Assembly (NCBI GenBank): GCA_030066085.1
Contig: JASJCI010000030.1
Location: 1-35,735, forward strand
Reading direction: 5' to 3'
DNA: 35,735 nucleotides
From: Gammaproteobacteria bacterium
GTDB lineage: Bacteria; Pseudomonadota; Gammaproteobacteria; GCA-001735895
Shown here: one piece after another, positions 12,751 through 27,981 of the stretch
Numbering within the stretch: the first letter of the stretch is position 1
Layout of the letters: each line of letters opens with the position of its first letter
Program-made: the position numbers and the translations under genes
Notes under the pieces: model-generated
Told to the model about the DNA's origin: nothing
Databases searched by the model: none
Seen by the model: the letters and a program-made list of their open reading frames with translations, nothing else

Positions 12751-12783
12751 CGTCATCCCCGCGTACGCGGGGATCTCGTAAAG
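12751..12783 (+). repeat. 33-bp palindromic repeat, copy 1
   Basis: REP-like element CGTCATCCCCGCG...CGCGGGGATCTCGTAAAG with a 20-bp perfect palindrome at 12755-12774. It differs from copies 2 (14107-14139) and 3 (16936-16968) only in the loop bases and, against copy 2, one flanking base. It lies in the rplA-rplJ gap. Confidence 0.85.
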
Positions 12784-12824
12784 TCTTGCTCTTTCCAGCT
12801 TTGGGGATCGCGCCGTCCGCTGGA

Positions 12825-12872
12825 GATCCCCGCTTTCGCGGGGATATAAATCCGGCAGAGCCGGATTTATAT
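12825..12872 (-). repeat. Core repeat plus hairpin over the rplA stop
   Basis: Two palindromes abut. The first is the repeat core (arms 12826-12833 and 12838-12845). The second is a 12-bp stem with arms 12844-12855 and 12861-12872, overlapping it by two bases. The rplA stop codon (12869-12867) lies inside the distal arm of the second hairpin, so the last rplA codons take part in the structure. It may act as a terminator or attenuator after rplKA, but no clear U-run follows. Confidence 0.7.
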
Positions 12873-14106: not shown

Positions 14107-14186
14107 CGTCATCCCCGCGAAAGCGGGGATCTTGTAAAGGTGCCGCCTTTACAAGATCCCGGCTAAGTGCTTCGCACTTTCCGGGA
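14107..14186 (+). repeat. 33-bp repeat copy 2 in a triple-palindrome array
   Basis: Positions 14107-14139 match the 33-bp repeat (stem 14111-14118 with 14123-14130). A 13-bp inverted repeat follows (14128-14140 with 14146-14158), sharing the repeat's right flank. A third palindrome follows, with TCCCGG arms at 14157-14162 and 14181-14186 and an inner AAGTGC/GCACTT stem. The third resembles the 45-bp repeats upstream of tuf. The array fills most of the nusG-rplK gap (13996-14294), which holds no gene. Confidence 0.8.
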
Positions 14187-16935: not shown

Positions 16936-16989
16936 CTTTACGAGATCCCCGCTTTCGCGGGGATGACGTAACGAAAAATGCATTTTTCG
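16936..16989 (-). repeat. 33-bp repeat copy 3 plus A/T palindrome
   Basis: 16936-16968 is the reverse complement of the 33-bp repeat (stem 16945-16952 with 16957-16964). It is followed at 16972-16989 by an 18-bp perfect palindrome, CGAAAAATG mirrored. With the two 45-bp repeats and the 20-bp inverted repeat, it fills the tRNA-Thr to tuf gap (16681-17001), in which no gene is seen. Confidence 0.8.
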
Positions 16990-17447: not shown

Positions 17448-19535
17448 TCAGCCCCTGGCCGCGCGCCGCTCGTTGGTCTCCTTGATGACCTCGTCGGCGA
17501 CGTTTTTCGGGCACGGCATGTAGGTCTCGAATTCCATCGAGAACTGGCCGCGTCCCGAGGTCATGGTGCGCAGGTCGCCGATGTAGCCGAACATGTCTGA
17601 CAACGGCACGCTGGCCTTGACGCGTACGCCGGTCGGCGTCGGCTCCTGCGACTTGATCATGCCGCGGCGCCGGTTGAGATCGCCGATGACATCGCCAACG
17701 TGATCTTCCGGAACGAACACGTCCACCTTCATGATCGGCTCCATCAGCTGCGGACCGGCCTTCGGAATGGTCTGCCGATAGGCGCCCCTGGCCGCGATCT
17801 CGAACGCAACCGCGGACGAGTCGACCGCGTGGAAAGCGCCGTCGAACAGGTTGACCTTGACATCGAGCAGCGGGAAACCGGCGAGCACGCCTTCGACCAT
17901 GCAGGACGCAAAGCCCTTTTCCACCGCGGGCCAGAATTCGCGCGGCACGTTGCCGCCGGTGACCGAGGACTCGAACTGGAAGCCGCTACCCGGCTCGCCG
18001 GGCTCGACGATGTAGTCGATCTTGCCGAACTGGCCCGAACCACCGGTCTGTTTCTTGTGGGTGTAGCTGTCCTCGACGCGCTGGGTGATGGTTTCACGGT
18101 AGGCTACCTGCGGCTTGCCGACCTCGACGTCCACCATGTGCGTACGGCGCAGGATGTCGACCTTGATGTCGAGATGCAGTTCGCCCATACCCTTGATAAT
18201 TGTTTCGCCGCTCTCTTCGTCGGTTTCGACGTAGAAGGACGGATCCTCCTTGACCATCTTGCCGATCGCGATACCCATTTTTTCCGACGCGGCCTGGTCC
18301 TTGGGCTTGATCGCCACCGAGATGACCGGATCCGGGAATACCATGGGCTCCAGCGTGGCCGGCTCCTTCTGATCGGCCAGCGTGTGACCGGTCTGAACAT
18401 TCTTCAGGCCCACCAGCGCGACGATGTCGCCGGCCTCGGCCTTGTCCAGCTCGATGCGGTCGTCCGCGTGCATTTCGACAATGCGGCCGATCCGTTCGGT
18501 TTTGCCGGTGAAAGTATTGAGGACCGTGTCGCCCTTGGCCAGCTTGCCGGAGTAAATGCGGGTAAAGGTCAGCGCGCCGAAGCGGTCGTCCATGATCTTG
18601 AACGCCAGCGCGCGCAGCGGCCTGGCCGGATCCACGGTCGCCACTTCACCGGTTTCGTTGCCTTCGAGATCGATCTCCGGCTGCGGCTTGACCTCGGTCG
18701 GGTTCGGCAGGTAGTCGACGACCGCGTCGAGCACCAGCTGGATACCCTTGTTCTTGAACGCACTGCCGCAGTAGGTCGGGAAAAAGTCGAGCGCGATCGT
18801 GCCCTTGCGAATGCAGGCCTTGATGTCGTCGATCTCGGGCTCTTCGCCCTCGAGGTACATCATCAGCAGCTCGTCGTCCTGCTCGAGCGCGGTTTCGATC
18901 AGCTTTTCACGGTATTCCTCGATCTGGTCGGCCATGTCCGCGGGCGGATCCTGCACTTCGTACCTGGTCGGGTCGCCGGAGTCGTCCCACACCCAGGCCT
19001 TGCGGGTCAGCAGGTCGACCACGCCGACGAAGTTTTCCTCGGTGCCGATCGGCAGCGTCATGACCAGCGGGTTGGCGCCGAGCACGTCCTCGATCTGTTT
19101 GACCACGCGATAGAAGTCGGCACCCAGGCGATCGAGCTTGTTGACGAAGATGATGCGCGAAACCTCGGAGTCGTTGGCATAGCGCCAGTTGGTCTCCGAT
19201 TGCGGCTCGACACCGCCGGAGCCGCAGAATACGCCGACACCGCCATCGAGCACCTTCAGCGAGCGATACACCTCGATCGTGAAATCGACGTGCCCGGGAG
19301 TATCGATGATATTGAGACGATGGTCGTTCCATTCGCAGCTGGTCGCGGCCGACTGGATCGTGATACCGCGTTCCTGCTCCTGGTCCATGAAGTCGGTGGT
19401 AGCGGCGCCATCGTGAACCTCGCCGATCTTGTGGATCTTGCCGGTGAGCTTGAGAATGCGCTCGGTCGTCGTCGTTTTGCCCGCGTCCACGTGGGCAAAA
19501 ATACCGATGTTCCGGTAGGTGCTCAGGTTAGCCAT
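17448..19535 (-). CDS. fusA2: Second elongation factor G (EF-G2)
   Basis: Full-length EF-G paralogue, 695 residues. The G motifs are intact: AHVDAGKT (14-21), RGITI (56-60), DTPGH (78-82), NKLD (132-135). Domain IV carries [15 protein letters not shown] where EF-G1 has [13 protein letters not shown]. It differs from EF-G1 also at [14 protein letters not shown] after switch II. The ATG at 19535 has no strong Shine-Dalgarno. Many gammaproteobacteria carry such a second EF-G; roles in alternative translocation or ribosome recycling have been proposed for different subfamilies, and the role cannot be set from sequence here. It stands alone between the tRNA promoter and an acyl-CoA cassette, preceded by a terminator-like hairpin. 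Confidence 0.93.
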
Positions 19536-24256: not shown

Positions 24257-24724
24257 GTGAGCGATACAGAAGTCGAACCCAGAATCATCAAGAAGTACCC
24301 GAACCGGCGTCTCTACGACACCGAAAAGAGCAAGTACGTCACCCTGCAGCAAATCCGCGACCTGGTGCTCGACGAAGTGGCATTCATCGTCATCGACCAG
24401 AAAACCGAGGAAGACATCACCCGCAGCATCCTGCTGCAGATCATCTTCGAGCAGGAGTCGGAAACCAACCCGTTGTTTTCCAACGACAACCTCGAACGCT
24501 TCATTCGCTTCTACAACGCCGGCGCACACCTCGGCTTTTCCGACTTCATCGGCCAGAGCATGAACTTCTTCCAGCAGCAGCAGCGCGAATTCGGCAAGGC
24601 GATGGAGGGCATGACCGGCCACAATCCGATGACCTTCTGGAACGACATGACGCAGAAAAACATCGACGCCTGGCGGCAGATGATGGGTCTCGGGCCGGAA
24701 AACGACGACTCGGATAAATCCTAA
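24257..24724 (+). CDS. phaR: PHA synthesis regulator PhaR
   Basis: 155 residues. The N-terminal domain (IIKKYPNRRLYDTEKSKYVT, about residues 9-28 onward) is the PHB/PHA accumulation regulator DNA-binding domain, followed by the PHB-accumulation regulatory domain and a Gln/Met-rich C-terminus. PhaR proteins repress phasin and pha genes and are released by binding nascent PHA granules. The start is GTG at 24257 with a weak GGGA upstream. Candidate binding sites with TGC/GCA symmetry lie at the phaB and phaE promoters. It is the first pha gene of the plus-strand cluster. Confidence 0.95.
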   Translation: MSDTEVEPRIIKKYPNRRLYDTEKSKYVTLQQIRDLVLDEVAFIVIDQKTEEDITRSILLQIIFEQESETNPLFSNDNLERFIRFYNAGAHLGFSDFIGQSMNFFQQQQREFGKAMEGMTGHNPMTFWNDMTQKNIDAWRQMMGLGPENDDSDKS

Positions 24725-24768: not shown

Positions 24769-24797
24769 TTGACAGCCGCGGCATAAACGCCTATTTT
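24769..24797 (+). promoter_or_regulatory. Sigma70 promoter of phaB
   Basis: Perfect TTGACA (24769-24774), 17-nt spacer, TATTTT (24792-24797; four of six). Start near 24804, about 56 nt ahead of the phaB ATG. The candidate PhaR operator begins inside the last two bases of the -10 box. Confidence 0.8.
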
Positions 24798-24825
24798 GTG
24801 CAGTGCAACATGCTGCATCGCAGCA
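24796..24825 (+). promoter_or_regulatory. Candidate PhaR operator at phaB
   Basis: Two adjacent sites. 24796-24811 (TTGTGCAGTGCAACAT) is the exact reverse complement of a 16-bp site at the phaE promoter (25736-25751). It is followed at 24811-24825 by TGCTGCATCGCAGCA, a perfect palindrome of 6-bp arms around 3 bp that contains CTGC-N3-GCAG. PhaR proteins are known to favour TGC/GCA-symmetric sites. Position over the transcription start implies repression. Confidence 0.65.
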
Positions 24826-24859
24826 AGCTTCCAAACTACCACGTGAATATGACAGAGAT

Positions 24860-25606
24860 ATGAATCAGCCACGCATTGCACTCATCACGGGGGGTACCGG
24901 CGGAATCGGCACCGCAATCTGTAAAGCGCTCGCCGACCAGGGCCGCAAGGTCATCGCGGGATATTATCCGCCGGACAAAGACCAGGCCGAAACCTGGCGA
25001 CACAAGCATCGCGAAGCCGGCTACGACTTCGACATCGTCGCCTGCGACGTCAGCGACTACGAATCCAGCAAACAGATGATGCACGACGTCGAAAACACCA
25101 TCGGTGTGGTCGACATCCTGGTCAACTGCGCCGGCATCACCCGCGACAAAACGCTGAAGCGAATGACCCCCGACCAGTGGGACGCGGTCATGCGCACCAA
25201 CCTCGACTCGGCCTTCAACGTCACCCGCCACGTGGTCGAAAGCATGTCGGAGCGCGGCTTCGGCCGGATCGTCAACATTTCCTCGGTCAACGGCCAGAAG
25301 GGACAGTTCGGCCAGGCCAACTATTCCGCCGCCAAGGCCGGCCTGCACGGCTTCACCAAGGCAGTGGCGCAGGAACTCGCCGCCAAGGGCGTCACCGTGA
25401 ATTCCGTTTCGCCCGGCTACGTCAAGACCGACATGACCGACGCGATCCCGGAAGAAGTCCGCGATGCGATCATCCAGCAGGTACCCATGGGGCGGATGGC
25501 GTCACCGGACGAAATTGCCTACGTCGTCAGCTTCCTCACCGACGATCGCAATACCTACATGACCGGCGCCAACCTGCCGGTCAACGGCGGCATGTACATG
25601 ACCTGA
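24860..25606 (+). CDS. phaB: Acetoacetyl-CoA reductase PhaB
   Basis: NADPH-dependent reduction of acetoacetyl-CoA to (R)-3-hydroxybutyryl-CoA, the PHB monomer. 248 residues, a classical short-chain dehydrogenase: cofactor loop TGGTGGIG (10-17), NCAG (89-92), catalytic Ser142, Tyr155 and Lys159 in SSVNGQKGQFGQANYSAAK. Gly/Asn-rich C-terminus GANLPVNGGMYMT is typical of PhaB. The frame opens earlier at a GTG (24803), but that lies at the predicted transcription start and operator; the ATG at 24860 gives the family N-terminus. It has its own promoter and a strong terminator after it. Confidence 0.95.
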   Translation: MNQPRIALITGGTGGIGTAICKALADQGRKVIAGYYPPDKDQAETWRHKHREAGYDFDIVACDVSDYESSKQMMHDVENTIGVVDILVNCAGITRDKTLKRMTPDQWDAVMRTNLDSAFNVTRHVVESMSERGFGRIVNISSVNGQKGQFGQANYSAAKAGLHGFTKAVAQELAAKGVTVNSVSPGYVKTDMTDAIPEEVRDAIIQQVPMGRMASPDEIAYVVSFLTDDRNTYMTGANLPVNGGMYMT

Positions 25607-25680
25607 TCCTCCGGGGCGAGGATATCCGCTGCCAGTTAGCCTGATTCACCTGCGAATCAAGATAACTGTCAGCAAAACAA

Positions 25681-25704
25681 AAGCGGGCTCGGGCCCGCTT
25701 TTTT
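25681..25704 (+). terminator. Intrinsic terminator after phaB
   Basis: Perfect 8-bp stem AAGCGGGC/GCCCGCTT with a TCGG loop, running into a six-base T-run. It lies about 75 nt after the phaB stop, separating phaB from phaEC. Confidence 0.92.
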
Positions 25705-25731
25705 GCTGCGTTTCGAGCCAGTTTTCGGCGC

Positions 25732-25751
25732 TATTATGTTGCACTGCACAA
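25732..25751 (+). promoter_or_regulatory. phaEC -10 box and candidate PhaR operator
   Basis: TATTAT (25732-25737, five of six) overlaps by two bases the 16-bp site 25736-25751 (ATGTTGCACTGCACAA), the reverse complement of the phaB operator. The spacing of site to -10 box is the same as at phaB. No good -35 is visible 16-18 bp upstream, so the promoter is less certain than the operator. Confidence 0.6.
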
Positions 25752-25799
25752 TAAACTGTGCTAGGCTTCAATCCTTTTTAAAATTAACGAGTTAGCGAC

Positions 25800-26909
25800 A
25801 TGAGCGAAAACAATCCCTGGACCGAACAGTGGTTCAAGGCGCAACAGCAGTTCGTCGATGCCTGGACCGACATGGCGCGCAGCGGCAACGCCGGCGGCGC
25901 CAGCCAGGCCGACCTGTGGGCGAAGAACTTCGATGCCTGGCGGCGCAGCTTCGAGGGCCGCGGTCAACCCGACGCCGAGGTCGCGCTGCGCAAGTGCATG
26001 GACATGGGACGCGAATATTTCGCCATGGCCGAGCAGGTCGGCAAGCTGATGAGCCAGGGCAGCAACCCGGTGGATGCGATCAACCAGTGGCTGGAGCAAA
26101 TGAAGCAGGCACTGGGACAGTTTACCGGCATGCCGGGATTCAACGGCGCCGCGGTCAACGATTTCATGAAGCAGTGGTTTTCACCGAGCGCCAACTGGCA
26201 GGACATGGTGTCGCAGCTGACCCCGATGAACCAGGCGATGTGGCAGATGCCGGGCATGAATACCTCGGTCTTCAACCTCGGCGAGGCCATCGACCCGCTG
26301 GGCAAGATTCTCGAAGCCCCGGGCGTCGGTTACTTCCGTGAACCGCAGGAGAAACAGCAGCGCGGGCTTCAGCTTGCCCTCGAATACCAGGAAGCCAACT
26401 ACCGCTTCAACCAGGCATTCCTGCGCGTCGCGCTGGAATCCATCCAGGGTTTCCAGCAGCGCCTGCTCGGCCTCGACAGCGACACCATGCCGCAGTCACT
26501 GCGCGAGCTCTACGACCTCTGGGTCGAGGTCAGCGAAACGCACTATGCCGAGTTTGCGATGGGCGAGGAATACCAGGGGCTGTACGGCGACATGGTCAAC
26601 AAGCTGATGACCATGCGCAAGCACTACAGCGAAATGACCGACGATTTCCTGCGCGCGCTGAACCTGCCGAACACCCGCGAAATCGATACCATGCAGGAGC
26701 GCCTGCAGCAGCTGCGCCGCGATAACTTTGCGCTCAAGCGCGAAATCAGCGAAATCAAGGCGACGCTGGCGCAGCTGGTCGGCAAGCCGGCAGCCAAACC
26801 GGCGGCAACCGCCAAACCGGCGGCCAAGGCCGCCGCCGCGAAAAAAGCGCCGGCGAAAAAAGCCGCCGTCAAGAAATCGAAAGTAACCCGAGCCAAAGCA
26901 GGAGCCTGA
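25800..26909 (+). CDS. phaE: Class III PHA synthase subunit PhaE
   Basis: Non-catalytic partner that activates PhaC in class III synthases. 369 residues; begins MSENNPWTEQWFKAQQQF. Conserved PhaE features include GYFREPQEKQQRG and, near the end, a heptad coiled-coil (about 290-327, MQERLQQLRRDNFALKREIS). The last 41 residues (329-369) are almost only Ala, Lys and Pro, like the histone H1-type tail of PhaF phasins; ordinary PhaE proteins of about 355-360 residues do not usually end this way. ATG at 25800 with only a weak GAG upstream. phaC follows after 4 nt. The tail could tie granules to DNA; this is inference. Confidence 0.94.
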   Translation: MSENNPWTEQWFKAQQQFVDAWTDMARSGNAGGASQADLWAKNFDAWRRSFEGRGQPDAEVALRKCMDMGREYFAMAEQVGKLMSQGSNPVDAINQWLEQMKQALGQFTGMPGFNGAAVNDFMKQWFSPSANWQDMVSQLTPMNQAMWQMPGMNTSVFNLGEAIDPLGKILEAPGVGYFREPQEKQQRGLQLALEYQEANYRFNQAFLRVALESIQGFQQRLLGLDSDTMPQSLRELYDLWVEVSETHYAEFAMGEEYQGLYGDMVNKLMTMRKHYSEMTDDFLRALNLPNTREIDTMQERLQQLRRDNFALKREISEIKATLAQLVGKPAAKPAATAKPAAKAAAAKKAPAKKAAVKKSKVTRAKAGA

Positions 26910-26913
26910 CACC

Positions 26914-27981
26914 ATGGAAAACATCCCGTTCCGTTCCGACCGCGTGGTCGACGAGCTGGTGCAGTTCAACCAGAACCTGAGCAAGGGCGTCAAGAACCTG
27001 CTCGACGCGGACGAAATTTCCGCCGGCGTTACCCCGCGCGAGGAAGTCTACAGCGAGGACAAGCTCAAGCTGTATCGTTACCAGCCGTCTACCGGCGTGG
27101 TGCAGAACAAGATCCCTACGCTGATCATCTACGCGCTGGTCAACCGCCCCTACATGACCGATATCCAGGAGAACCGCTCGACCATCAAGGGCCTGCTGGA
27201 CACCGGCCAGGACGTCTACCTGATCGACTGGGGTTACCCGGATCGCGCCGACAAGTACCTGACCCTCGACGACTACATCAACGGTTACATCGACCGCTGC
27301 GTCGACGTGATGCGCGAACGCCACGGCGTCGACAAGATCAATATCCTCGGCATTTGCCAGGGCGGCGTGTTCAGCCTGTGTTACACCACGCTGCACCAGG
27401 ACAAGGTCAAGAACCTGGTGACGATGGTCACGCCGGTCGACTGCAAGACGCCGGACAACATGCTGAGCCACTGGGTACAGCAGATGGACATAGACGCGAT
27501 CGTCGACGCCATGGGTAACCTGCCCGGCGAAATGCTCAACTGGACCTTCCTCAACCTGAAGCCTTTCCAGCTGATGGGACAGAAGTACGTGTCCATGGTC
27601 GACATCATCTCCGACGAAAAGAACGTCAAGAACTTCATGCGCATGGAAAAATGGATTTTCGACAGCCCGGACCAGGCCGGCGAAGCCTTCCGCCAGTTCA
27701 TCAAGGACTTCTACCAGCAGAACAAGCTGGTCGAGGGCGGACTCAGGATCGGCGACCAGGAGGTCAGCCTGAAGAACCTGAAAACGCCGGTGCTGAACAT
27801 TTTCGCTGAACAGGACCACCTGGTGCCGCCAGACGCATCGAGGGCGCTGAAAAAGCTGGTCGGCAGCAAGGATTACACCGAGCTGTCATTCCCCGGCGGA
27901 CATATCGGCATCTACGTCAGCGGCACCGCGCAAAAAACCGTGACCCCGGCGATTTCCGACTGGCTCAACGCCCGCGGCTGA
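26914..27981 (+). CDS. phaC: Class III PHA synthase catalytic subunit PhaC
   Basis: Polymerises (R)-3-hydroxyacyl-CoA into PHA on granule surfaces. 355 residues, the class III length. The lipase-box-like motif GICQGG holds the nucleophile Cys148; Asp301 (AEQDHLVPP) and His330 (PGGHIGIY) complete the triad, each one residue off the Allochromatium vinosum numbering. The Trp-rich segment LIDWGYPDRAD is conserved in synthases. ATG at 26914, with AGGAG lying within the end of phaE, so the subunits are translationally coupled. A strong terminator follows. Short-chain (C3-C5) monomers are expected for this class. Confidence 0.97.
   Translation: MENIPFRSDRVVDELVQFNQNLSKGVKNLLDADEISAGVTPREEVYSEDKLKLYRYQPSTGVVQNKIPTLIIYALVNRPYMTDIQENRSTIKGLLDTGQDVYLIDWGYPDRADKYLTLDDYINGYIDRCVDVMRERHGVDKINILGICQGGVFSLCYTTLHQDKVKNLVTMVTPVDCKTPDNMLSHWVQQMDIDAIVDAMGNLPGEMLNWTFLNLKPFQLMGQKYVSMVDIISDEKNVKNFMRMEKWIFDSPDQAGEAFRQFIKDFYQQNKLVEGGLRIGDQEVSLKNLKTPVLNIFAEQDHLVPPDASRALKKLVGSKDYTELSFPGGHIGIYVSGTAQKTVTPAISDWLNARG

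Follow-up and report, generated by a model that had tools for sequence, protein, structure and literature searches.

A TGCA-N-TGCA element shared by the phaB, phaEC and phasin promoters is a candidate PhaR operator in a gammaproteobacterial lineage

The closest described systems are those of the repressor PhaR and its homologues, for which relief of repression through granule binding is established (PMC12542648, PMC3206438, PMC12849132). PhaR (AniA) of Sinorhizobium meliloti recognises the consensus WNWD2NYGCRNYGCRNH2WNW, found as ATATTGTGCAGTGCAGCAACA between the -10 element and the start at SMa1961 (PMC12542648). The H. seropedicae homologue PhbF has the footprinted site TG[N]TGC[N]3GCAA and binds the promoter regions of phbC, phbA and phbB (PMC3206438), so that contact between PhaR and synthesis genes is not new in kind. 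In R. eutropha, PhaR recognises YTKNTGCRNYGCANMAR palindromes, with BS1 upstream of the -35 element and BS2 at the start site of phaP1 (PMC12849132), while B. diazoefficiens PhaR has TGCRNYGCASMA sites (PMC6201568). The genes under control differ from those described below: direct targets in S. meliloti are phasins, depolymerases, EPS and carbon genes, and phbA promoter activity is unaffected by phaR (PMC12542648), whereas the sites we describe in the DNA at hand lie on reductase and synthase genes. The described R. eutropha targets are phaP1, phaP3 and phaR, with control of the synthase suggested in a review (PMC12849132, PMC9049629). B. diazoefficiens resembles our locus in its TGCRNYGCASMA sites and in a wide regulon that includes PHA genes, but the available text of that report mentions neither a class III phaEC promoter nor an operator covering a -35 element (PMC6201568). 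A literature search covering few subscription papers returned nothing on phaEC operators of this type in proteobacteria.

The stretch of DNA analysed here as a whole, a window of 35,735 nt, carries on its forward strand the genes phaR, phaB, phaE and phaC. The product of phaR (24257..24724, GTG start, 155 aa) scores 125.8 bits against the PHA synthesis repressor equivalog model TIGR01848, above the curated cut-off of 109.45, confirming that a PhaR is encoded just upstream of phaB and phaE. Its DNA-binding domain matches PF07879 at 8.3e-29; the PHB_acc domain PF05233 gives 22 bits (E 0.00017; Pfam cut-off 27), and a PDB sequence search with PhaR yielded no match at E 0.01. The acetoacetyl-CoA reductase gene phaB (24860..25606, 248 aa; TIGR01829, 376 bits, cut-off 302.1) is followed by phaE, encoding a class III PHA synthase subunit (25800..26909, 369 aa; TIGR01834, 171.7 bits, cut-off 154.95), and directly after it by phaC, encoding the catalytic subunit (26914..27981, 355 aa; TIGR01836, 561 bits, cut-off 365.3). 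H. seropedicae differs in its pha gene organisation, and PhbF binds its own promoter region as well as those of phaB and phaP1 (PMC3206438). By contrast, an upstream scan of the window's phaR revealed no operator-like site, and thus no operator at the phaR promoter of the kind that autorepression would use; in the genus, an operator lies upstream of phaR in 2 of 15 loci, both with phaR divergent from phaE.

A 16-mer, TTGTGCAGTGCAACAT, lies at 24796-24811 (+) in front of phaB, and its exact reverse complement at 25736-25751 in front of phaE. The initial annotation had pointed out these oppositely oriented sites, and they are indeed the sole exact copies in the assembly (4,388,651 bases in 85 contigs, 96.6% complete), rather than two of many scattered over unrelated places. 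Three further places in the assembly match with up to two mismatches; within the window there is no other match, even allowing three. Such a match had been called very unlikely by chance. Dinucleotide shuffles contain a mean of 0.17 matches, with two matches in 1 of 100 shuffles, but exact 16-mer repeats as such are not rare in the window (34 direct, and 29 pairs inverted), many of them stemming from EF-G paralogues and GATCCCCGC repeats, so that the significance of TTGTGCAGTGCAACAT rests on its position and conservation. The two elongation factor G genes are different from one another and lie on the same strand (29-2113 and 17448-19535), and the GATCCCCGC...GCGGGGATC palindromes form a REP-like family (12755-12845, 14107-14132 and 16936-16968).

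The 15-base core of the 16-mer, TTGTGCA-G-TGCAACA, is a degenerate palindrome of the form TGCA-N-TGCA with a one-base centre and unequal arms. Since 10 of its 15 bases equal its own reverse complement, 'opposite orientation' concerns the outer arms and the centre only. The site has the (Y)GC(R)-N-(Y)GC(R) form, one-base centre and conserved outer arms of known PhaR operators. The same palindrome is used in S. meliloti, where the SMa1961 operator TTGTGCAGTGCAGCA differs from the window 15-mer at one base and lies, like the window's phaB site, between the -10 element and the start; the S. meliloti operators are backed by EMSA and point mutations (PMC12542648).

At phaB, the predicted promoter TTGACA-17 bp-TATTTT (24769..24797, +) has 10 of 12 consensus matches, its TATTTT hexamer occupying 24792-24797. 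The first candidate operator, O1 (TTGTGCAGTGCAACA, 24796..24810, +), overlaps the end of this -10 hexamer and the probable start site. Abutting it is a second candidate, O2 (TGCTGCATCGCAGCA, 24811..24825, +), which carries one mismatch and adds to the sites noted initially. Both the promoter and the operators recur in the genus: across 16 loci with phaB in view, the window among them, TTGACA plus TATTTT or TAAATT and a site at phaB were found in all 16, and a second phaB operator in 15, with centre spacings of 18 (nine loci), 15 (two), 16 (two) and 19 bp (two).

The candidate phaE operator (TGTTGCACTGCACAA, 25737..25751, +) is placed differently. As at phaB, the first two bases of the 16-mer copy are the last two of a -10-like hexamer, here TATTAT (25732-25737), as had been observed. 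However, we rejected TATTAT as the phaE -10 element because it is unconserved, whereas a downstream TGnTAnnnT is conserved: in all 15 genus loci that have a phaE site (15 of 16, L213 being the one without), TGNTANNNT starts at offset 22, counted from the start of the operator. Within the operator's TGTTGC arm lies a -35-like TTGCAC or TTGCAG, 17 bp upstream of this extended -10. The probable phaE promoter (25739..25767, +) thus consists of TTGCAC inside the operator, a 17-bp spacer and the extended -10 TGCTAGGCT (25759-25767), which places the phaE operator over the -35 element and spacer. Outside the genus, 27 of 50 loci have TANNNT at offset 25 and 11 have it at offset 24; the next best offset counts 8 loci. 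An alternative layout, with TTGACA and the operator in the spacer, occurs in L227, L229-L232 and L237. The initial statement that geometry as well as sequence is shared therefore fails for geometry, as the phaB operator covers the -10 and start.

This arrangement may account for the operator's inversion at phaE with respect to phaB. The TGTTGCAC arm would supply the phaE -35 element, while the TTTTGTGCA arm would continue the phaB -10, and the unequal arms would be oppositely oriented because they double as promoter elements. In the 14 other genus loci compared, the phaB and phaE 15-mers are identical at 11-14 of 15 positions when compared inversely, and at 9-11 in the same orientation; opposed arms are therefore conserved across the genus, but the exact copy is not, and is peculiar to the window genome. 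These genus loci (L201-L216), which include an Olavius algarvensis Gamma 3 endosymbiont scaffold (L211), come largely from the same contigs as our earlier genus locus set, and the two sets are not independent. The footprint and the promoter-offset analysis used a cut-off of 6 of 8 core bases; 7 of 8 were required for the phaE counts in named genomes, their rearranged-core controls and the G010/G011 check described below.

To describe sites elsewhere in the genome, we used TKBTGCANTGCAVMA, our own condensation of the published operator arms, with the reversed pattern as control. Four exact sites were found, at phaB, phaE, C45:121515 and C42:5758, against none for the control. Allowing up to one mismatch gave 22 places, phaB O2 among them, against 13 in the control; away from the pha genes, most of those with a single mismatch probably reflect chance. 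The C45 site lies, on a different contig from the window, in the promoter of the sole gene with a Phasin_2 match in this genome, which has two further sites (three in total) and is followed by a thiolase gene. A genome-wide search and phylogenetic footprinting had both been proposed initially; in the footprint, the site is present at phaB in 16/16, at phaE in 15/16 and at the phasin gene in 24/24 loci. The proposal of a local regulon is right about the common site at phaB and phaE, but too narrow given the three sites at the distant phasin. At all 24 phasin loci, from 22 genomes, two operators, separated by 58-60 bp, lie around the -35 and -10 elements of a TTGAC(A/T)...TATATT-type promoter, a placement like that at phaP1 of R. 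eutropha/Cupriavidus necator, where release is by granule binding (PMC12849132, PMC9049629). In the window genome's own phasin promoter (L050:9488-9559) a third operator fills the -35/-10 spacer, and this is absent from the 23 relatives' phasin loci.

Two other sites were rejected as regulon members. The C42 site lies 105 bp before a gene of the short-chain PHA depolymerase family (a PHB-depolymerase-like esterase), but none of nine relatives' loci carries it, these nine being the best among 30 loci returned, our own included, with one (L100) partial at a contig start. The C13 site, which lies between osmC and a Crp-like gene, was present in none of the 22 relatives' loci that were examined out of 29 returned. 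A further candidate site in the window genome lies at OmpW (C10).

The operator-as--35 layout also serves to find PHA genes. The compound pattern TTGCRNYGCANMAN{7,8}TGNTANNNT has 23 matches in 19 of 229 gammaproteobacterial genomes, against one for the control, and its single match in the window genome is the phaE promoter. The genes that follow are phaE in nine cases (by tblastn, the window's own included) and Phasin_2 genes in seven (by Pfam), plus one malate synthase G, one FeoA and one HHH-domain protein; four matches have no assigned gene, among them L281 and L297, whose contigs end 39 and 172 bases past the site. The malate synthase G match (L287, in G032) stands 61 bp before the gene of this glyoxylate-shunt enzyme.

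In named genomes, a PhaE-alignment scan of contigs kept 80 of 190 relatives, and four of the 80 loci were dropped for short upstream DNA. Within 300 bp upstream of phaE, the motif is present in 53 of the remaining 76 loci, compared with 152 of 3578 other windows from the same loci and 0-1 of 76 phaE windows for six rearranged-core controls. Outside the genus, 39 of 61 phaE upstream windows have it; the genomes surveyed include Ectothiorhodospira, Thioalkalivibrio, Thiothrix, Hydrogenophilus and Gallionellaceae. The 23 windows without the motif at the 7/8 cut-off belong mainly to genomes of the Lysobacterales type, in some of which phaE has a looser TGCG..CGCA form. In G024, TTGTGCATTGCACAA stands 58 bp ahead of a class I phaC (716 bits), counted from the longest reading of the phaC frame.

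Site number also follows the presence of PhaR. The 57 genomes compared contain 138 exact sites and five control matches; 101 fall in the 28 genomes with PhaR (105.9 Mb) and 37 in the 29 without (77.2 Mb), a difference in sites per Mb with a Mann-Whitney p = 0.0005 for genomes that are phylogenetically non-independent, relatedness being uncorrected. In the genus, PhaR was not detected in 12 genomes, eight of which also lack the phasin. Seven of these eight have 0-1 exact sites, the other (G006, 62% complete) having four; G001, G002, G022 and G027 have no detected PhaR but keep the phasin, with 1-5 exact sites.

Other readings of the sites were weighed. Binding by some other dimeric regulator of TGCA-N-TGCA, with PhaR a mere neighbour, could account for the persistence of sites in five genus genomes without detected PhaR (G001, G002, G006, G022 and G027). 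These assemblies are 62-91% complete, and our guess is that PhaR may fall in an assembly gap; four of the five have operators at phasin genes. Since the motif is that of PhaR operators established by footprinting and point mutation (PMC12542648, PMC3206438), site number follows PhaR presence, and all but one of the eight genus genomes in which neither PhaR nor phasin was found have 0-1 sites, a different regulator appears very unlikely. The exact inverted identity in the window genome could instead suggest that the two copies work as a pair, by looping between promoters 940 bp apart or by recombination. We rejected this for lack of conserved identity, the copies elsewhere in the genus sharing the 11-14 positions given above. 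Moreover, G010 and G011 keep both sites although their phaR is placed between the two genes and is divergent from phaE, showing that a fixed pair arrangement is not needed, and we give this explanation the least credence of all.

A further possibility is that PhaR binds the sites but activates one promoter, most plausibly that of phaE, where a weak -35 lies inside the operator. Precedents exist: phaP3 of R. eutropha is activated by PhaR (PMC12849132), and activation by PhaR has been reported for some B. diazoefficiens genes, including phbB2 (PMC6201568). However, the activated phaP3 has three sites, two of them ~70 and 200 bp ahead of the start (PMC12849132), whereas the phaE operator on the -35 and spacer and the phaB operator on the -10 and start both overlap the expected footprint of RNA polymerase, which makes activation unlikely here.

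We therefore favour, with a probability of roughly 90%, the reading that the 16-mer is a PhaR operator through which phaB, phaEC and the distant phasin gene would be repressed until a PHB granule forms. The initial proposal of a PhaR-type operator common to phaB and phaE is supported to this extent, binding being predicted. The reading draws on the sequences, positions, conservation and co-occurrence observed here, and, for PhaR binding, repression and release by PHB, on characterised homologues. PhaR, as a multimer, would bind TGCA-N-TGCA and block RNA polymerase, whose contacts the sites overlap at the predicted phaB, phaE and phasin promoters. At phaB it would sit on two abutting operators over the -10, start and initial transcribed region, at phaEC on a single operator that spans the -35 and spacer of a promoter with an extended -10, and at the phasin gene on three operators around the promoter. 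Once some PHB is made, PhaR would be drawn onto the granule and all three promoters would open, giving a joint rise in monomer supply, polymerase and granule coat. As the synthase itself would be a PhaR target, the circuit would have positive feedback.

In relatives, the motif also precedes a GNAT gene whose product resembles the acetyltransferase Pat below cut-off (NF058543, 93.5 bits, cut-off 460). An operator is centred ~29-30 bases before the start of this Pat-like gene in 14 of 16 loci examined (L171-L186, of 31 listed, the rest being dropped), and is absent in G015 and the window genome; an example is the gene at L157:1709-2236 with its operator at 2259-2273. TAGGAT-like -10 boxes come after the operator, spaced as at phaE, with the ATG ~six bases further, so that the mRNA would be nearly leaderless. 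An MFS transporter gene is divergent from the GNAT gene in several relatives. In L153, L156 and L169, TTTTGCAGTGCAGAA or its complement forms the centre of a longer inverted repeat (arms, for example, GTGACAGTTAA...TTGACTGTCAC) and has the look of a dispersed palindromic repeat, not of a PhaR site.

More tentatively, and with this broader picture rather doubtful as a whole, PhaR could shut the class III synthase promoter of many Gammaproteobacteria and some Betaproteobacteria through an operator that doubles as the -35 element of that promoter; synthase, reductase and phasin would then be derepressed together by the first granule in an autocatalytic, possibly all-or-none switch, which in this lineage would include the Pat-like acetyltransferase. 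If true, the latter would tie protein acetylation to carbon storage. With the operator laid out as a -35 element, a model in which granule initiation involves positive feedback can be tested directly, and the promoter pattern finds PHA genes in unannotated genomes. For this uncultured gammaproteobacterial lineage, our analysis would place the reductase and class III synthase branch, beyond phasins and depolymerases, under a granule-sensing repressor, and the plastic-making genes would probably be fully on only once granule formation has begun.
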